Positions 12,029 through 32,436 of a stretch of DNA of 64,000 bases are shown one piece after another (the first letter of the stretch is position 1; every line of letters starts with the position of its first letter). The position numbers and the translations under genes were made by a program. The notes below the pieces were generated by a model. That model did not search any database. It was not told the DNA's origin and saw only the letters and a list, made by a program, of their open reading frames with translations. The DNA comes from Timaviella obliquedivisa GSE-PSE-MK23-08B (lineage in GTDB: Bacteria > Cyanobacteriota > Cyanobacteriia > Elainellales > Elainellaceae). The DNA is taken from contig JAHHII010000016.1 in the NCBI GenBank assembly GCA_019358855.1, forward strand, positions 1-64,000, given 5' to 3'.

Positions 12029-13135
12029 ATGTTAGATGCGATCGCAGCAGTCGATAACCTCGGCATGGAAGACTCAGCATTAGCCGCTGATGTTTCCGTC
12101 ACAAGTTTAGATACGAATGCAGCATTGACTGAATCACAAGGCTCTTCTATACAAAGCGCTGACTTCGATCAGTCTCTAATGGATATGCTGTCTAGCCTTG
12201 ATGCCCTTGGCAATGACACAAACCCATCCTTACGCATCGTTTCCGGTCAGTCCTTAGAAGACGCGTTGGCAGATGCAATACCGGGCTTAGATCCGACGAC
12301 CATAACGCCACCCGATCCATTCGCTGAAGAAGGTTCTTTATCCAGCCTTGAGGCTCCAGTTGATGTTACGAACCCATCGCTGCAAGTCGTTTCAGGTCAG
12401 TCTTTGGAAGACGCATTGGCAGACGCAATACCGGGCTTAGATTCCACGACCGTAACGCCACCTGCTCCGTTAGCTCAAGACTCGAGTTTGAGCATCGCTG
12501 AAGATGCGAGTTTGAACCCGTTCATGATGGCTGCCCTCAGTGAGTTAGATAATGCAGAGTCTATCGGTGAAGCGTTTCAAGCGGTCAGTGATGGCTTTGA
12601 AGGACTGAGCGATAGTTTTGAACAGTTGGCAGCATCGTTCCTAGCACAAGATAGTAACGTTGACACTGCGGCGATCGACGCTAGTAGTGATGATGCCAGT
12701 GCTGACCTTGAGGCGAATAATGTCGCAATTGATGACGGGGAAAATGCTGCCAACGCCAACTTTGATGCTGACTCAGTAGAAACCAAAAACGTGAGTAATG
12801 ACGATGATAATACCGATTCTGATACCCGTTTTGATACCGATTCTAATCTCGATTCTAGCAGCCATTCTCATGACGGTTCTCACGACCATTCTGACAAGGT
12901 GGCGATCGCTAATGATGCTGATGACATTAACGCTGATTTTGGCATCAGTAACCTAATCAGTAATGATGATGACATCACTCTAGGAACAGACTTTGATTTA
13001 GATTTTGATGCTCTGAAAGTGAATGTTGGTCAAATAAGTCGGGGTTTGCAGTTCTTGGTGCAGCAACTTGAAGCAGCTTTTGAAGGTGATGATTCATCGT
13101 TGACAGCAGCATCGACTTTTAATTCTTCACGCTAA
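12029..13135 (+). CDS. Acidic low-complexity protein with internal repeats
   Basis: A 368-residue, very acidic protein with no recognised domain. It contains two copies of a ~40-residue unit with core SLEDALADAIPGLD, about 150 bases apart in the DNA (near 12221 and 12371). The same motif occurs once in the preceding RTX/CHRD protein as EALADVIPGLDPTT. Both proteins also share an upstream IQ-x4-QSL motif. A histidine-rich patch (SHSHDGSHDHSDK) and many Asp/Asn residues suggest metal binding. There is no signal peptide, so type I export is plausible but unproven. It starts 124 bases after the CHRD gene, and its TAA stop directly abuts a MITE-like repeat. Confidence 0.65.
   Translation: MLDAIAAVDNLGMEDSALAADVSVTSLDTNAALTESQGSSIQSADFDQSLMDMLSSLDALGNDTNPSLRIVSGQSLEDALADAIPGLDPTTITPPDPFAEEGSLSSLEAPVDVTNPSLQVVSGQSLEDALADAIPGLDSTTVTPPAPLAQDSSLSIAEDASLNPFMMAALSELDNAESIGEAFQAVSDGFEGLSDSFEQLAASFLAQDSNVDTAAIDASSDDASADLEANNVAIDDGENAANANFDADSVETKNVSNDDDNTDSDTRFDTDSNLDSSSHSHDGSHDHSDKVAIANDADDINADFGISNLISNDDDITLGTDFDLDFDALKVNVGQISRGLQFLVQQLEAAFEGDDSSLTAASTFNSSR
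12221..12489 (+). repeat. Two direct repeats of about 120 bases within the acidic protein gene
   Basis: Copies begin at AACCCATCCTTACGC (12221) and AACCCATCGCTGCAAG (12371). Both encode NPSL-x-x-VSGQSLEDALADAIPGLD and differ at few codons, which suggests a recent duplication. Confidence 0.75.
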
Positions 13136-13284
13136 GGGAGTTGCGTGAAAATGAAACCCCAATGGGATGCATTGACTTATCAGCCCCCTAAATCCCCCAT
13201 TCTGGGGGACTTCCGAACCTGTCAAAGTCCCCCATTCTGGGGGATTTAGGGGGCGGTTCGGGGCGTTATTTAATTGCAACTCCC
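13136..13284. repeat. MITE-like palindromic element, copy 1 of family A
   Basis: A 149-base element with terminal inverted repeats GGGAGTTGC (left) and GCAACTCCC (right), flanked on both sides by TAA. The interior has two opposed arms of the CCCCCTAAATCCCCCATTCT type. No coding capacity. Its right end forms the last codons of the deoxyribosyltransferase-like gene on the minus strand. Copy 2 is at 18500-18649. Confidence 0.85.
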
Positions 13285-13740
13285 TAACCAGCCAAACAGC
13301 GACTTATCTGGTGCGCCAATCTCCTCAACCGAAGTGTAAAAGCAGCTTTCCCAGCCTATCTCTGGCAAGCCTGCAAATAACATCAGGTTGAGGGGATATT
13401 TTTCGCTATCGGTACACCGTCGAAAATCATCTCGAAACAAAAAGATTGCCTTGTTGAGCGCGATCGCCACACCCAACTCCACCATTACGCCTTCATCAGG
13501 AGGCGTGCCATTCACAATGGCGAAAATTCCATCACAGTTCTTCACATCATTCAAATCTGCTTGCGCCACCTGATACGCCCATCCTGGCTGCGAAAGATCA
13601 ACCTGGTTATTGCGCTCAAACGGTTCCCAAACCTCAGCCCCCAAGCTTTCTAGCGATCGCACAATAGGCGGTAACAGCAGTGCCTTTTGTTGAGCCGAGA
13701 AACCGTAGGGGCTAGCCAAGTAGATAATTTTGCGAGTCAT
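13270..13740 (-). CDS. Nucleoside 2-deoxyribosyltransferase-like protein
   Basis: A 156-residue protein from the chosen start at MTRKIIYLASPYGF. The family signature appears as LASPYGF near the N-terminus and as DEGVMVELGVAIAL, where the glutamate would be the nucleophile. NDT-fold enzymes cleave or transfer the N-glycosidic bond of deoxynucleosides or related nucleotides; the exact substrate cannot be read here. A longer frame starts at 13800, but family alignment favours 13740. The last residues, GSCN plus the stop, are encoded by the terminal repeat of the inserted MITE, so the natural C-terminus was probably altered by the insertion. Confidence 0.8.
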   Translation of the reverse strand: MTRKIIYLASPYGFSAQQKALLLPPIVRSLESLGAEVWEPFERNNQVDLSQPGWAYQVAQADLNDVKNCDGIFAIVNGTPPDEGVMVELGVAIALNKAIFLFRDDFRRCTDSEKYPLNLMLFAGLPEIGWESCFYTSVEEIGAPDKSLFGWLGSCN

Positions 13741-13830
13741 GTCTGTCTCGGTGCGACTGAAAGGTACTAGCGGTATCATCAGTCTAATATCATCAGGCAA
13801 CTTAATTTATCAGGCAAGCTGGGACAGGTT

Positions 13831-15786
13831 ATGGTGCAACTAAAATCTTGGCAGTGGCTAGTATTGATCAGCCCGATCGCCATCCTCGTTAGTTTCTTGC
13901 TGATTGCCGCAGGATTACAAATCCATGAGTGGGGCATTAATTGGATTTGGGGCTTAGTGCCGCTGTTGCTGTTGGGCTGGCGTTGGCTGTTGGTCAACTG
14001 GACACAGCCCGAAATTCGCCAGGTCGAAGCCGCGATCGCAGAGGTTAATCAAGAACTTAAGTCTTCAGCATCTTCCGGTGGAACGGGGGAGGGAAGGACA
14101 GGGGCACAAGCGGCAATCGTGCTTCAAGAACTTTTGTTGGCGGCACAAAGCGATCGCCCAATTTGGGAAGACTGGCAAACTTTCTGGAAACGTTGTCAAG
14201 ATCTGGTAAGCGCGATCGCCCACATCCACCATCCTGAAGTTAAATATCCCCTTCTTAACATCTATGTGCCGCAAGCCTACGGACTGATTCGAGGAACAGT
14301 CGATGACATGGATCAATGGATGCAAAAGTTATCGCCCGTACTCAGTCAATTAACCGTTGGTCAAGCCTACCAAGGCTACGAAGTTTACCGCAAGTTAGAA
14401 CCCTCGGCACGCAAACTGGGACAAGTTTGGGATTGGGCGCAGTGGGTCTTAAACCCTGTTGTGGCAGTTGCAAAACGCGCCAGTCAGCCTTCCAGCAATC
14501 AGGCAAACCAGCAGCTATTGTTCAACCTCAGCCAACTTTTGCGAGAAGCGGCTTTGCGCAATTTATGTCAGCAAGCGATCGCCCTCTACGGCGGCAGCGC
14601 TCTCCCCGATTCTTTCGGAACCGCAACAGACCCCGCCATTCCCCTCGCTAAAACTCAAACCCTACGCGACATTCTTTCCCAAGCCCAGCCCGCCGAAGTC
14701 GTTGCACAAAAGCCCCTGAATATCTTGCTAGTCGGACGTACCGGAGCCGGAAAAAGCAGCCTGATCAACACACTGTTTCAAGCCGATCGGGTTCAGCCAC
14801 GATCGGCTCAACCTCAACAAGTGCAAGCCGAGCCGATCGCAGTAGATGTATTGCCTAGCACCGACCAAATTCAAAGCTATCAGTGGCAAGCAGAGGGTGA
14901 AACGTTAATCCTTTGGGACACGCCAGGTTACGAACAAGTTAACCGCAGTGATTTTCGAGAACAGGTACTGGACTTTGGCACAAAAGCCGATCTCCTCCTC
15001 CTGGTCACACCTGCCCTTGATCCAGCGCTGCAAATGGATGTCGATTTTCTGAAGGAAATGCAGGATTTAGAATTGCCGACTCTGGCGATCGTTTCTCAGG
15101 TCGATCGCCTTCGTCCCGTGCGGGAGTGGGAGCCGCCCTATGATTGGCAATGGGGCGATCGACCTAAGGAAATCGCGATTCGGGAAGCGGTTGAATATCG
15201 GGCACAGCTTTTAGGTGAGTTTTGCGATCGCGTGTTACCGATTGTGATGGGTGATTCTTCGGCAGGTGGTTCTGGGCGAATGGCTTGGGGTATAGAGGCG
15301 TTGTCATTGGCACTGCTAGAAGCGATCGCCCCAGCGAAACAACTCCGCCTCGCCCATTTTCTGCGCAACTTAGATGCCCGAACGATCGCGGCAGCAAAAA
15401 TCATCGATCGCTACACGTTGCAAATGACAACGACTCAAGGGCTAACAATGTTTCTTAAAAGTCCTGTCCTGCAATTCATTTCTACCCTATCTACCGGAAC
15501 GCCAGCCCTGGCGTATGTGTTGGCACAAAAGATTCCCGTCGAGGAGTTACCCGTGGTCATTGGCAAACTTCAGATGGCATACGATCTGTTTTTGCTACTT
15601 AACCCTAAAGGCAATCCTTTAAACTTCGATTTGCGATCGCTCTGGTCATTATTAATAGACAATTCTGCTCCCGCCGATCGTGCTGCTAGTGCATTGGGTC
15701 ATGCGCTAGTAGAGTACTGGACGCAGGACTTAACAATGGAGCAATTGCAGGAACGGTTCAATTATTATTTGACGCAACCAGCATGA
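13831..15786 (+). CDS. Membrane-associated Era-like GTPase
   Basis: A 651-residue protein. Two hydrophobic segments lie near the N-terminus (about 8-28 and 33-52), followed by a ~230-residue helical region. The GTPase domain starts at about 295 with G1 GRTGAGKSS (about 301-309), G3 WDTPGYEQ and a G4-like SQVDR in place of the usual NKxD. The C-terminal ~150 residues are helical and hydrophobic, as in DUF697-type partners of dynamin-like or YcjX-like GTPases. The substrate process is unknown; a role in membrane stress or remodelling is only an analogy. It starts shortly after the divergent deoxyribosyltransferase-like gene. Confidence 0.75.
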   Translation: MVQLKSWQWLVLISPIAILVSFLLIAAGLQIHEWGINWIWGLVPLLLLGWRWLLVNWTQPEIRQVEAAIAEVNQELKSSASSGGTGEGRTGAQAAIVLQELLLAAQSDRPIWEDWQTFWKRCQDLVSAIAHIHHPEVKYPLLNIYVPQAYGLIRGTVDDMDQWMQKLSPVLSQLTVGQAYQGYEVYRKLEPSARKLGQVWDWAQWVLNPVVAVAKRASQPSSNQANQQLLFNLSQLLREAALRNLCQQAIALYGGSALPDSFGTATDPAIPLAKTQTLRDILSQAQPAEVVAQKPLNILLVGRTGAGKSSLINTLFQADRVQPRSAQPQQVQAEPIAVDVLPSTDQIQSYQWQAEGETLILWDTPGYEQVNRSDFREQVLDFGTKADLLLLVTPALDPALQMDVDFLKEMQDLELPTLAIVSQVDRLRPVREWEPPYDWQWGDRPKEIAIREAVEYRAQLLGEFCDRVLPIVMGDSSAGGSGRMAWGIEALSLALLEAIAPAKQLRLAHFLRNLDARTIAAAKIIDRYTLQMTTTQGLTMFLKSPVLQFISTLSTGTPALAYVLAQKIPVEELPVVIGKLQMAYDLFLLLNPKGNPLNFDLRSLWSLLIDNSAPADRAASALGHALVEYWTQDLTMEQLQERFNYYLTQPA

Positions 15787-16379
15787 TCGCCCCTTTCTAT
15801 CAAACAGAAGACCTTTTTACGGTGTCACTAAATCAAAATCCGGTTCCCCTGCCCTCGCAGGGAAGGGGTTAGGGGTTAGGTTTCGATAACGCAGCGCGCG
15901 CGACCTCTCCCCCAACCCCTCTCCTGAAGGAAAGGGGCTTTGAGCAGATTCATATTCTCATTCAGCAATGCCCCCGTACCGTTTGCCAGTGGCAAGTACA
16001 TGAGTGTCTTGGTGAGATAAGGCAGAGCATCACGGGCTACCGTCTGTCTATGGCGTAGCTCCTGCAATGCGATCGCAACCTGGCGCAATGACAATGTCAC
16101 CACTCAACTTTCTAATTGCGCTCTCTACAATGCCAGTGTGACCCAACACGCTGCCATTGTCACTCGACCTCATGGCAGTGTGACTCGACACGAAGCGATC
16201 GCAACCTCACACAATGGCGATCGCACAGCCTTTCCTTTAAGAATTGGGCATTGCCCAATAAAGGTGATGAGGGAAAATCATACTTAGATTCAGCAACGCC
16301 TTTTCTTCAACCCTATCTTCGTTTCCCTCATCTTTGTTTATCCTATTGGTTAGACCATTACACGATCGCCATTAGATTC
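15787..16379. other. 593-base intergenic region with two kinds of repeat
   Basis: No convincing gene. At 15848-15941 there is an inverted arrangement of the widespread cyanobacterial motif (GGGAAGGGGTTAGGGGTTAG against CTCCCCCAACCCCTCTCC). At about 16087-16200 degenerate units around ATGCCAGTGTGAC / TGCCATTGTCACTCGAC recur four or five times at 20-30 base intervals. The open frame upstream of yebC (16116-16379) is an in-frame extension through these repeats and is not counted as coding. Confidence 0.6.
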
Positions 16380-17171
16380 ATGTCACATAGTAAATGGGCA
16401 ACCATCCAACGGCAAAAAGCCAAGACAGATGCAGGCAAAGGAGCAACTTCGGCAAAAATGTCACGGGCAATTATCATCGCAGCGCGCGCAGGCGTACCTG
16501 ACCCGTCTGCCAATTTTCAGCTTCGGACTGCCATCGATCAGGCAAAGGCGGCGGGTGTTCCTAAGGAAAATATCGAACGGGCGATCGCCAAAGGGGCAGG
16601 CACCTTTGGCGGCGAAGATGCCCTGGAATCCATCCGCTATGAGGGCTACGGAGCAGGCGGCGTGGCAGTCATTGTCGAAGCGCTGACCGATAACCGCAAT
16701 CGCACCGCCGGAGATTTGAGGTCTGCATTCAGCAAACGGGGTGGGAACATGGGCGAAACAGGCTGTGTAAGCTGGATGTTTGACCAAAAAGGCGTAGTGA
16801 CCATCAAGGCACATCCCCCTGCAAGCAAAAAGGAACGGGCAGTAATAAATGAAGAAGCTCTACTAGAAGCGGCACTAGAAGGCGGTGCAGAGACGTATGA
16901 ACTCCTTGAAGTTGAGGAAGATATTCCCGGTGCAGAAATTTTCACCGAACCGACTAACCTGGAGCAGCTTGTCCAGAGCCTTAAAGAACAAGGTTATCTT
17001 GTGGAACAAGCTGAAATTCGCTGGATTCCTAACAACAGCGTTGAGGTAACCGACGCAGAACAAGCGCGATCGCTCCTACGGATGATGGAGGTTCTGCAAG
17101 AACTAGACGATGTGCAAAGCGTCACTGCCAACTTTGAAATGGCGGATGAGCTGCTGACCAGTTTGGTTTGA
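16380..17171 (+). CDS. YebC/PmpR-family translation/transcription regulator
   Basis: A 263-residue protein from the start MSHSKWATIQRQKAKTDA. The family hallmark HSKWATI...K..DA.KG and RAI-x3-ARAGVPDP, followed by NIERAIAKGAG and GYGAGGVAVIVEALTDN, is complete. YebC proteins were described as transcription regulators, and more recent work ties the family to relief of ribosome stalling at proline stretches. The open frame extends 88 codons upstream, but those codons translate intergenic repeats and the family starts at MSHSKW, so 16380 is chosen. Usual family length is about 245-255 residues. No operon partner. Confidence 0.93.
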   Translation: MSHSKWATIQRQKAKTDAGKGATSAKMSRAIIIAARAGVPDPSANFQLRTAIDQAKAAGVPKENIERAIAKGAGTFGGEDALESIRYEGYGAGGVAVIVEALTDNRNRTAGDLRSAFSKRGGNMGETGCVSWMFDQKGVVTIKAHPPASKKERAVINEEALLEAALEGGAETYELLEVEEDIPGAEIFTEPTNLEQLVQSLKEQGYLVEQAEIRWIPNNSVEVTDAEQARSLLRMMEVLQELDDVQSVTANFEMADELLTSLV

Positions 17172-17269
17172 GGAATATTCTCAAAACGCCTTCAGAATGC
17201 CTCGCTTGAAAGTCCGCTAGAATCGCGGCACAATAAAACTAGCAGCTTAACGTTTCTTCAAAATCCCCA

Positions 17270-18529
17270 ATGGTTCTGGCTCAGCATTCCTCCATTTCTT
17301 CCTCCGCGCAGCAGGTTACTTATGATGTGGCGATCGCTGGAGCCGGGATTGCAGGGCTAACCCTCGCCTGTGCCCTGAAAGACTCAGGACTTCGCATTGC
17401 CCTCATCGAAACCAAGCCCCGTACCGCTGGATTGCAGCAGCAGCGGGCATATCACCTTTCGCTGATGACCGAGCGCATCTTCACAGGTCTGGGCATTTGG
17501 CAACATATTTTGCCCCACATCACCACCTTTCGCCAAATTAGCCTCGCCGATGCCGACTATCCTGCCGTCGTAGACCTGCGCCCCGAAGACTTAGGCACCC
17601 AAAATTTGGGCTATGTGGGAGAACACCGAGTCTTGGTGCAGGCATTGCTAGATGCTCTGGAATCCAGTGAATCGGTCACCTGGATTTGCCCTGCGGAAGT
17701 GATAGAAGTGGAATATGGAACAGATGCCGCAGTGGTGACGATCGCCCTAGATGGAGAACAACAGCAGATTCGGACAAAGCTGATGGTAGCCGCAGATGGA
17801 GGGCGATCGCCCTTGCGCCAACAAGCAGGCATCAAAACCCACGGCTGGCAGTACTGGCAATCCTGCGTCACGGCAGTGATTCGTCCTGAAGCCTCCCACG
17901 GCAACATTGCCCGCGAACACTTTTGGTCGAGCGGCCCCTTTGCAACGCTGCCCCTGCCTAATAACCGCTGTCAAATTGTCCTGACGGCTCCCCACGATGA
18001 GGCACGGCAATGGGCAACTGGCACCGAAGCCGACTTTTTAGCCGAACTCAATCGTCGTTATCAGGGGCAGTTGGGCAAGTTGGAGCTATTGAGCGATCGC
18101 CTCCTATTTCCTGTGCAATTGATGCAGAGCGATCGATACATTAGCCCCCGCCTTGCCCTGGTCGGCGATGCGGCTCACTGCTGTCATCCGGTGGGGGGAC
18201 AAGGCTTAAACTTAGGCATTCGAGATGTGGCGGCACTCGCCCAAGTGCTGCAAACGGCTCACCGCCAAGGCAAAGATCTCGGTAGCCTGCCCGTCCTGCG
18301 ACATTACGAACGGTGGCGAAAACTAGAAAACCTGATGATTTTAGGATTTACTGATTTTCTCGATCGCAGTTTCTCTAGCAGTTGGCTACCGATCGTTATT
18401 GTGCGCCGTTTAGGACTGCGAGTGATGAAAGTAATACGTCCGCTTAAGTTTGTGGCACTACGGATGATGACTGGCACAGGTGGACGTAAACCCGACTTAG
18501 GAAGTTGCGTGAAAATAAAACCTCAGTAA
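17270..18529 (+). CDS. UbiH/VisC-family FAD-dependent hydroxylase
   Basis: A 419-residue flavoprotein hydroxylase. The Rossmann motif GAGIAGLTLA is at about 25-34, the mid DG motif is AADGGRSPLR, and the GD motif is ALVGDAAHCCHPVGGQGLNLG at about 297. Family members hydroxylate aromatic quinone precursors; in cyanobacteria a homologue is thought to act in plastoquinone or related quinone synthesis, but the substrate here is inferred. The C-terminal residues GSCVKIKPQ and the TAA stop (18527-18529) lie inside a MITE-like element that begins at 18500, so the natural C-terminus has been replaced. Confidence 0.87.
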   Translation: MVLAQHSSISSSAQQVTYDVAIAGAGIAGLTLACALKDSGLRIALIETKPRTAGLQQQRAYHLSLMTERIFTGLGIWQHILPHITTFRQISLADADYPAVVDLRPEDLGTQNLGYVGEHRVLVQALLDALESSESVTWICPAEVIEVEYGTDAAVVTIALDGEQQQIRTKLMVAADGGRSPLRQQAGIKTHGWQYWQSCVTAVIRPEASHGNIAREHFWSSGPFATLPLPNNRCQIVLTAPHDEARQWATGTEADFLAELNRRYQGQLGKLELLSDRLLFPVQLMQSDRYISPRLALVGDAAHCCHPVGGQGLNLGIRDVAALAQVLQTAHRQGKDLGSLPVLRHYERWRKLENLMILGFTDFLDRSFSSSWLPIVIVRRLGLRVMKVIRPLKFVALRMMTGTGGRKPDLGSCVKIKPQ

Positions 18530-18649
18530 GATGCACTAACTTTCCAGCCCCCTAAATCCCCTATTTTGGGGGACTTCCGAGCCTTTCAAAGTCCCCCAAA
18601 ATTGGGGGATTTAGGGGGCGGAGCGGGACGTTATTTTATTGCTCCTCCC
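18500..18649. repeat. MITE-like palindromic element, copy 2 of family A
   Basis: A 150-base element with ends GGAAGTTGCGTGAAAAT and TTATTGCTCCTCCC, preceded by TTA and followed by TAT. The interior arms CCCCCTAAATCCCC / GGGGATTTAGGGGG face each other around a short spacer. It resembles the element at 13136-13284 over its whole length. It provides the final codons and stop of the hydroxylase gene. Confidence 0.85.
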
Positions 18650-18661
18650 TATCTCCGATCC

Positions 18662-20110
18662 TTAACTTGCTTCTTGACTCTGCAAATGAGGCAGCCGCAC
18701 AACATAGCGGTAGCCTTCTTCGCTTGAACCTTTGATGGTGATGTTTCCCCCATGCAGTTCTGCTAAATGGCTGCTCAACAGCAATCCTAAGCCTTGCCGA
18801 GACACGTCCGGTTGCTTCGACTCTTCAGTAGTTTTATAAGATTCAGAATACGTTAAATATTCTTCGGGCAAGTCATTAACATTCCAAGTCGCTGAGGATG
18901 CTGATGAAAATTCATTGAGATCCGAATCTGCACCCACTAAGGCAAGGCGGTTCGTTGACTGGGGTGAATAGTCAGTGGGTAAACCATCGCCCAGCCAAGG
19001 ATGGGAAATCCAAATGGTAAGGCTGAGGTCGGCTTGCTTGCGCGAAACGTGAATGCGAATAGTTCCTCCTGCATTAGAGGTTTGAATGATGCCAAACACC
19101 AGATGATAAATTAGCTGCCGAACTTTACCTTTATCGAGGAGCCAAATTCGCTGTCCGGGTTCTATGGTGAGTCTAATTTGCTGTTCGCGGCGTTGGGCAG
19201 ACTGGGCGAGGGTGCCGATCGCCTGCTGGCAGAGCATTTCAATGTCAACAGGCATTAAGTTAAGGGCGCGATCGCTATCGTCTAACGCACCCAAATCGAC
19301 AATCTCATTAACCAACGACAGCAAATACTGTCCGCTGTTGTGAATAATTCCAATATATTCCTGCTGTTTGTCGGTGAGGGTGCCATAGATACCTTGGCTT
19401 AAAACGCTGCCCATGCCCAGGATTGAGGTCAGCGGCGTGCAAAGCTCTTGGGTCATTTGAGAAATCAGACTAGCTTTGATAGAGACAGGAGCAGGTTCAT
19501 TTGTGAGGGAGGGCTGAGGGGTACGTTTAATTAAGCGATCGCGCTCAAACTCACTCATGCTCCAACGCGCCATGAGTTGCAAAAAGTCAATGTCCTTCCG
19601 GGTAAAGCTGCGGGGTTCTAGTTCCATGATTGCCAGGGTGCCAACACAGACCCCGTCGGAAGTCATGATGGGCACTCCTAGATAAGCTCGAACGCCATAA
19701 TGTTGAACGAGGGCAGTCGTGGCAAAAGTAGGATGTTTGGAGGCATCGGCGATCGCCAAGACTTGCTGAGTTTCTACAACTTGGGCACAGAAAGACTCGG
19801 TGCGATCGATCTGCCTCGTCGAAGCCAAGCTGTTCATCAGCCCCAACCGCGATAAACCCACGGCAGATTTGTACCATAAGCGATGGCGATCGAGCACGCC
19901 CAACACGCAAATAGAAGCCTCAAGGAAATGTGCTGCGGTTTGAGTGGCTTCCTCAAATACAGGCACACTCTCAGTTTCGAGCAAACCCAATGCTGTCAAA
20001 GTTTGCAACCGCGCCTGTTCTAAGTCTGCCATGTGCTCAAGGCGACCAGATAATCCATTCTCAGGACTGATCATCACAACCCCTTCCCTCGTATTGTCTA
20101 CGTATGCCAT
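18662..20110 (-). CDS. GAF-domain sensor kinase-like protein lacking the phospho-acceptor histidine
   Basis: A 482-residue protein. A GAF domain covers about 35-190, with RTESFCAQVVE and VRAYLGVPI motifs seen in GAF domains of cyanobacterial kinases. A HisKA-like segment reads SQMTQELCTPLTSILG, where most kinases have S-H-E-L-R-T-P-L: the histidine is replaced by Gln221. The ATPase end keeps GLGLLLSSHLAELHGG, but the N-box asparagine is not evident. It probably acts as a pseudokinase or scaffold, or is no longer active. It is divergent from the GH116 gene. No response regulator is adjacent. Confidence 0.8.
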   Translation of the reverse strand: MAYVDNTREGVVMISPENGLSGRLEHMADLEQARLQTLTALGLLETESVPVFEEATQTAAHFLEASICVLGVLDRHRLWYKSAVGLSRLGLMNSLASTRQIDRTESFCAQVVETQQVLAIADASKHPTFATTALVQHYGVRAYLGVPIMTSDGVCVGTLAIMELEPRSFTRKDIDFLQLMARWSMSEFERDRLIKRTPQPSLTNEPAPVSIKASLISQMTQELCTPLTSILGMGSVLSQGIYGTLTDKQQEYIGIIHNSGQYLLSLVNEIVDLGALDDSDRALNLMPVDIEMLCQQAIGTLAQSAQRREQQIRLTIEPGQRIWLLDKGKVRQLIYHLVFGIIQTSNAGGTIRIHVSRKQADLSLTIWISHPWLGDGLPTDYSPQSTNRLALVGADSDLNEFSSASSATWNVNDLPEEYLTYSESYKTTEESKQPDVSRQGLGLLLSSHLAELHGGNITIKGSSEEGYRYVVRLPHLQSQEAS

Positions 20111-31966: not shown

Positions 31967-32436
31967 CCAAATGAATCATTCTCAGAGGATGTCTGAGAAG
32001 TCTAGATTGTTATCCGATCCGCCCCCTAAATCCCCCATTCTGGGGGACTTTGAAGGAGGACTGGTGCAGAAGTCCCCCAGAATGGGGGGTTGGGGGGCGA
32101 GTGTAAGAATCCTTGAGACTTCTCAGACATCCTCTCAGACCGAAAGCTAGCCAGAACTTAAATGATCATTTTGCTTACATTGCTGAGAACAACCTCGCAG
32201 CCGCTCTACAGTTTTTTGATTCTGCACGGTTGATGATCGCTCAGCTTGCCAAAATGCCAGGAACCGGTAGTTTATACCTTGTCGAAAATTCTCGTTTGCA
32301 GGGGTTACGGAAATGGGCAGTGAAAGATTTCAGGAAATACCTGATTTTCTATTTTGAGCATGATAGTGATATCGAAGTTGTGCGAATTCTATATGCAACG
32401 CGAGACATCATCAGCATTTTGGACGGTGAGGTGTAG
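31963..32436 (+). pseudogene. parE: parE toxin gene broken by a MITE insertion
   Basis: The toxin frame begins at the ATG overlapping the parD stop, with codons ATG ACC AAA, then TGA at codon 4, ATC ATT CTC, then the inserted MITE (31986-32133). After the element the frame resumes as CTC AGA CCG AAA, followed by PKASQNLNDHFAYIAENN and the ParE-type C-terminus VKDFRKYLIFYFEHDSDIEVVRILYATRD, complete to the stop at 32436. Insertion plus duplication (153 bases) keeps frame but brings in a TAA. A TTG at 32113 inside the element could start a 107-residue product with a replaced N-terminus, so partial activity is not excluded. Confidence 0.78.
31986..32133. repeat. MITE-like element of family B inserted in parE
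   Basis: A 148-base element with perfect 18-base terminal inverted repeats AGGATGTCTGAGAAGTCT and AGACTTCTCAGACATCCT, flanked by a 5-base target duplication CTCAG (31981-31985 and 32134-32138). The interior has opposed CCCCCTAAATCCCCC and AGTCCCCCAGAAT arms like family A, though the ends differ. No transposase. The target duplication and perfect ends suggest a fairly recent insertion. Confidence 0.9.

Follow-up and report, generated by a model that had tools for sequence, protein, structure and literature searches.

Gene ends supplied and preserved by ISAzo13-type MITEs with a duplicated TTA/TAA triplet in Timaviella obliquedivisa

Two genes in a 64,000-nucleotide stretch of Timaviella obliquedivisa GSE-PSE-MK23-08B (contig JAHHII010000016.1, positions 1 to 64,000, hereafter the window) take their last codons from a short mobile element, and both do so in the same register. 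How does such an element come to form the end of a gene, and why is it tolerated there? The window elements at 13136-13284 and 18500-18649 (Table 1) are two copies of one MITE of about 149 bp, with an identity of 81% and 83% in two ungapped blocks. The deoxyribosyltransferase-like gene ends with TGG TTA / GGG AGT TGC AAT TAA (WL-GSCN-stop), its element part starting at GGG, and the hydroxylase ends with GAC TTA / GGA AGT TGC GTG AAA ATA AAA CCT CAG TAA (DL-GSCVKIKPQ-stop), its element part starting at GGA. The original prediction, according to which copy 1 encodes GSCN-stop and copy 2 GSCVKIKPQ-stop, proved correct base for base on re-reading; the junction that it described for both genes, TTA (Leu) followed by GG(A/G) AGT TGC and translated as Leu-Gly-Ser-Cys, matches this codon reading. 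It had also placed the other end of copy 1 next to the TAA stop of the acidic protein, and TAA 13133-13135 is indeed the left flanking triplet. The right flank of copy 2 is TAT at 18650-18652, i.e. the duplication is imperfect (TTA/TAT). The acidic protein gene matches no Pfam family at E<=0.001.

Table 1. Features around both MITE copies, in window coordinates
Feature	Position	Strand	Remarks
Acidic protein gene	12029..13135	+	stop codon common to target-site duplication
Left target-site duplication TAA, copy 1	13133..13135	+	stop codon of acidic protein gene
MITE copy 1	13136..13284	+	149 bp, ISAzo13-type ends GGGAGTTGCGTGAAAATGAAACCCC / GGGAGTTGCAATTAAATAACGCCCC
GSCN-stop end encoded by copy 1	13270..13284	-	deoxyribosyltransferase-like gene; orthologue ends differ
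Nucleoside 2-deoxyribosyltransferase-like gene	13270..13800	-	PF05014, E 1.5e-29
Right target-site duplication TAA, copy 1	13285..13287	+	TTA (Leu) codon of minus-strand deoxyribosyltransferase gene
FAD-binding hydroxylase gene	17270..18529	+	PF01494, E 1e-34
Left flank TTA, copy 2	18497..18499	+	last native Leu codon of hydroxylase
MITE copy 2	18500..18649	+	150 bp, GGAAGTTGC...GCTCCTCCC variant, also in genome copy L070
GSCVKIKPQ-stop end encoded by copy 2	18500..18529	+	FAD-dependent hydroxylase; congener end PDLASQIK-stop
GAF/histidine kinase gene	18662..20110	-	convergent neighbour; stop 12 bp from copy 2 right end

With up to three mismatches, the end patterns match 54 left and 56 right ends in the 4.9-Mb genome, and the reversed control patterns match none and one, respectively; the MITE is therefore a genuine family, dispersed throughout the genome. 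A DNA search and the two end patterns yielded 59 stretches, and 55 two-ended elements were analysed; the single-ended loci (L046, L061, L079, L083, L087 and L088; 6/59) are excluded from the 55. The two-ended MITEs are 114-294 bp long (n=55) and lack a transposase gene, with the exception of one copy of 1314 bp (L048), which carries a nested ISAs1. The window copies have a palindromic core inside, and their hairpins are strong (-83.5 kcal/mol with z -8.5, and -72.9 kcal/mol with z -7.6).

Identical 3-bp flanks are present in 45/55 copies (TAA 22, TTA 18, CAA 2, TAG 2, CTA 1), a perfect TTA or TAA duplication in 40/55. Flanks were scored as unequal by script in ten copies, including copy 2 and L070, the latter scored AGG/TAA by script and TTA/TTA by eye. 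The boundaries of L031, L040, L063 and L064, a GG-ended subfamily with TAA duplication, were shifted by 1 bp. Among the 40 perfect copies, 25 have G directly 3' of TTA, while 18 have C and 11 have G directly 5' of it. The best target context is [C/G]TTAG; TAA and TTA flanks are a single target in opposite orientations. A MITE of the IS630/Tc1-mariner type was rejected: IS630 and mariner duplicate a 2-bp TA target and ISAzo13 three base pairs (PMC10045372, in the sections at hand), and here the full triplet is duplicated, be it TAA, TTA, TAG, CTA or CAA.

A relaxed end pattern run over 36 genomes gave, among the matches listed, two facing ends 1.29 kb apart with TAA flanks in one genome (G047; ends GGGAGTAGCGTTGAAATAA / GGGAGTTGCCGATAGATAA). 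These ends enclose two overlapping frames that together code for a transposase of the ISAzo13 family. The second frame matches PF07592 above cut-off (E 7.5e-60); its match to NF033519 (E 1.2e-51, 176 bits) stays below the cut-off of 200, as expected for a gene divided between two frames. These frames (L138, 1128-1613 and 1610-2338) may reflect a programmed frameshift or decay. A protein search with this transposase found a match in 23/60 genomes, and a search with a related transposase in named genomes gave 43 loci. Facing ends with identical 3-bp flanks are present in 21 of 32 loci examined (11 TTA, 9 TAA, 1 TAG) with a script that favoured equal triplets; L251/L182 and L253/L254 are apparent repeats of single loci, which leaves no more than 19 distinct loci among the 21. 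Two further loci have ends with unequal flanks (L247, L267), and nine have no pair. Hosts with an end pair include Phormidium tenue, Desmonostoc muscorum, Nostoc, Fischerella and Leptolyngbya.

The cyanobacterial ISAzo13 ends are typically GGGACTTGC....AAATAA, those of the MITE GGGAGTTGC(G/A)..AAATAA. The window elements are thus alike to cyanobacterial ISAzo13 insertion sequences in end type and in the 3-bp TTA/TAA duplication, and with these similar ends, a 3-bp target-site duplication and a short body without transposase gene the MITE can be placed in the ISAzo13 family. They differ from the insertion sequences in their length of about 149 bp, the lack of a transposase and the palindromic core, and no autonomous copy was found here. 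In the congener, 13/21 elements have identical 3-bp flanks according to a script that favoured matching flanks. The G047-type transposase has no match in this genome or in the single congener (G001) by protein search; the MITE is therefore without a resident transposase source found in this genome. A PF07592 family search of this genome gave no match, as did the control genomes, and the exact 20-base left end has no match in a scan of the collection that may omit this genome and very near ones. From the ends and the duplication we infer a mobilisation in trans by an ISAzo13-family transposase, which was not found in this genome or its congener. Two local candidates for a parent were discarded: L048, the single long copy (1314 bp), owes its ISAs1 transposase to a later insertion that has ends of its own (CAGGGCTGATC) and is nested in the hairpin, and L087, whose right end falls inside a 108-aa frame, yielded no parent.

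A single explanation very probably accounts for both gene ends: a trans-mobilised ISAzo13-type MITE, a 3-bp TTA/TAA duplication, three outcomes at gene ends and tolerated tails. Non-autonomous MITEs would be moved by the DDE transposase of the ISAzo13 family into TTA/TAA targets, with duplication of 3 bp. As this duplication comprises one codon, either a stop or Leu, the triplet would decide most outcomes. At an in-frame TAA stop, the duplication would preserve the stop; at a T-TAR stop, the duplicated TA and the first G of the element would form TAG; at an in-frame TTA (Leu), or in the third register, translation would enter the element and proceed to its first stop. The window contains two cases of such read-in and one of a preserved TAA stop. 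In phase 0, TAA retains the stop and TTA leads to L-G-S-C with read-through. TTA plus G in phase 1 gives an immediate stop (T-TAG), and a TAA in that phase continues over 4 or 6 codons. Translation in phase 2 yields RELR... from the left end of the element or RELQ... from its right end. The Leu-Gly-Ser-Cys common to both window genes is, by this codon logic, mechanical and no separate coincidence, because one of the three registers after TTA always reads L-G-S-C. With another register closed by its immediate stop, two genes that read into the element easily fall into the same one. At L087 (2252-2578), the right element end inside the 108-aa open frame is read RELQLNNA; this frame may be a gene or chance.

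The original prediction had named coincidence as the alternative in case orthologues have the same C-termini without the element, and no such shared ends occur among the relatives compared. A GSC tail is found in 0/29 hydroxylase relatives (best relatives' loci; the search matched 60/60 genomes) and in 0/17 deoxyribosyltransferase relatives (all relatives found). In 24/29 hydroxylase relatives A comes next to the aligned PDL and precedes a variable stretch of 2-17 residues; the congener protein ends with PDLASQIK-stop. Relatives of the deoxyribosyltransferase end with WL or WV plus 2-11 variable residues in 14/17 cases; the congener gene has a frameshift near its 3' end (draft assembly). Both element joins sit directly behind the conserved protein core, which, with the lack of GSC in the orthologues, argues that both elements replaced a variable tail at this position. 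The residues that were lost are outside the conserved core, and we infer that the insertions persist through weak constraint on C-terminal tails. A single insertion would be enough to exchange a variable tail: GSCN for the short one after WL, GSCVKIKPQ for a PDLASQIK-like one and, at a third element, L042, an 18-residue tail.

For copy 1 another history is unlikely, albeit the best of the alternatives: two elements, one after the acidic gene and one in the deoxyribosyltransferase tail, could have recombined with loss of the intervening gene, leaving copy 1 as a deletion scar. The congener is not empty at this site, as such a deletion would lead one to expect, and possesses a 160-aa gene and another MITE between both orthologues, the MITE with TAA flanks and starting 26 bp past the stop of the acidic gene. 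However, the rejoined flanks of copy 1 restore a good target, GTTAG, and a plausible, orthologue-like tail, WLA-stop, and the congener element is oppositely oriented and in another position. A direct insertion of the MITE into a TTA/TAA triplet is the preferred reading of copy 1.

Related MITEs or remnants occur in several corresponding intergenic spaces of the congener. Copy 1 (L076) and congener L121 share the same space in opposite orientation. Copy 2 (L077) and congener L091 lie in matching spaces, and the congener space at the copy 2 site contains a degenerate hairpin of like kind. L055 and congener L203 share a space in opposite orientation, and an end of L203 supplies GICA-stop to the right-hand gene. 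The three spaces (L055, L076, L077) may reflect parallel insertion, or old insertions that were replaced.

Gene ends were called with a simple finder that had been trained on this genome and that recovers the genes around both window copies. With this gene finder and re-bounded element boundaries, 13 gene ends are located at or in elements, at 11/55 elements; gene calls scoring <20, e.g. L048 right +56 and L085 left +30, are not counted. C-terminal codons are supplied at only 3/13 ends; at the other 10 the element coincides with a stop, the commoner outcome, which the original prediction had noticed only at the acidic gene. Read-in is found at L042L (18 residues, RELRENKTPIGCIDLSAP; the suffixes L and R denote left and right), L076R (GSCN) and L077L (GSCVKIKPQ). 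The stop is the duplicated TAA at six ends (L034R, L038L, L055L, L063R, L069R, L076L); at four (L031R, L055R, L074R, L084L) it consists of the duplicated TA and the G with which the element begins. Re-bounding moved the ends at L031 (+2 to +1) and L063 (+1 to 0), and the stop-coincident tally is 10 with a raw value of 9. At L055 two convergent genes end on one triplet, and both stops are retained.

Rejoined flanks predict an unaltered protein at 8/10 stop-coincident ends. For L031 and L063 the rejoined-flank tails were computed with raw boundaries and are therefore longer; with corrected boundaries their stops are retained in the congener alignment. Congener orthologues were found for all ten gene ends outside the window. 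Aligned across the junctions, the congener has an empty site at L063 (ungapped, with both flanks), at L031 and at L074; at L038 the alignment covers the stop-codon side and only 3 bases past it. Congener tails are identical to those here at L031, L038, L063 and L084; at L074 one residue near the end differs (VIDP in the congener, VIEP here). The congener tails of L034, L055L and L069 differ more in their last residues, and an unaltered tail at these three ends is predicted solely from the rejoined flanks of this genome. The L042 orthologue of the congener has a different tail, QNQSDFLQSSTKDT.

The null expectation was taken from TTA/TAA sites in sampled DNA at which an insertion costs <=~10 codons (2329 sites), with 55 sites drawn each time. 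Ten stop-coincident ends compare with 3.9 expected for uniform sites (P 0.005) and 4.3 with target-context weighting (P 0.015), both unadjusted for several tests. Elements with two gene ends are 2 vs 0.16-0.45 expected (P 0.01-0.07, unadjusted). Read-in ends are not above chance (3 observed vs 3.7-4.1 expected), and elements with any gene end are not significantly more frequent than expected (11 vs 7.4-8.0, P 0.12-0.17). The proposed preference for TAA/TTA targets at gene ends is thus borne out for the target, with 40/55 perfect duplications, and not for gene ends as such. The ready-made stops once attributed to the element did not appear either: the element ends possess no extra stops, the mean run to a stop being 15.6 codons (13.3 in the CAGTGAG variant) vs 14.9 in shuffled sequences.

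The stop-codon excess is modest, about twofold, and may fit targeting or survival. Somewhat less than an even chance is given to the view that the one-codon duplication and the terminal G rebuild stops, whereby stop codons, even a shared one (L055), would be nearly free landing sites, used about twice as often as expected. The reason for elements at gene ends would then be simple, as the target triplet is itself a stop and is duplicated on insertion. An active preference, with the transposase or the target context (e.g. transcript ends) steering insertion to stops or gene 3' ends, is distinctly improbable. It would account for the excess of stop-coincident ends over the null and for the 3 stop-coincident ends among 21 congener elements, but post-insertion selection would yield the same excess, the raw tally is 9 and reaches 10 after two elements were re-bounded, the several tests are unadjusted, and neither any-gene-end elements nor read-in ends exceed expectation. 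When full-length ISAzo13 loci were scored by this genome's gene model, a stop at offset 0 or +1 was seen in 0/20, and the ISAzo13 distribution over four gene-orientation settings is called 'normal' in the accessible text of a large survey (PMC9208149). Three of the 20 loci have read-in ends (L252 +44, L268 +15, L161 +47), L268 in the register of copy 1. Exaptation as a gene-end module, in which stop and hairpin serve as terminator or insulator between convergent genes, is very improbable: the hairpins are strong and both window copies lie between convergent genes, but convergent settings (13/45 vs 20-22% expected) differ weakly, a consensus scan gave copy 1 a single short-stem terminator-like site and copy 2 none, and the element ends are without an excess of stops.

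Insertion into a TTA/TAA triplet with tolerated tails, the preferred reading, has parallels in other bacteria, and MITE takeover of C-termini is already published, as the consulted parts of PMC5896051 document. In Coxiella burnetii, QMITE1 and QMITE2 are likewise MITEs at gene 3' ends; their overlap with functional genes there is 1-50 bp, 33 C-terminal residues come from one of them, and the authors suggest that C-termini tolerate change (PMC5896051, same parts). QMITE2 differs in direct repeats of 7-11 nt with variable sequence, and a stop from a duplicated target is not described in these parts (PMC5896051). ERIC, Correia and Rickettsia palindromic elements are also small mobile elements translated in the host frame; in the Rickettsia elements, unlike here, ORFs are fused in frame within protein genes and do not form gene ends by a duplicated triplet (PMC2229807, in excerpt). 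Reviews describe in-frame fusions for several bacterial MITEs (passages of PMC2229807 and PMC10969869). In the portion of the open-access literature covered, we found neither an ISAzo13-derived MITE nor a duplication that rebuilds a stop. Annotators and phylogeneticists should allow for the possibility that the last residues of a cyanobacterial protein come from a transposon.

The hairpin core of the family shows features of its own. ISAs1-type insertions split 6/55 elements in the hairpin (L038, L048, L053, L057, L067, L082), of which one is an ISAs1 element whose transposase occupies two frames and the other five are short MITEs whose ends resemble those of ISAs1. The element hairpin looks like an insertion hot spot, comparable by analogy to QMITE2, a hot spot for IS1111 in Coxiella according to the pages seen of PMC5896051. 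A different MITE family is present in the window at 31980-32139, with ends GAGGATGTCTGAGAAGTCT and the same palindromic core CCCCCTAAATCCCCC; 40/40 scored second-family elements, of 171 first-look candidates in this genome, match in this core. Two MITE families with unrelated ends hence possess one common core hairpin.
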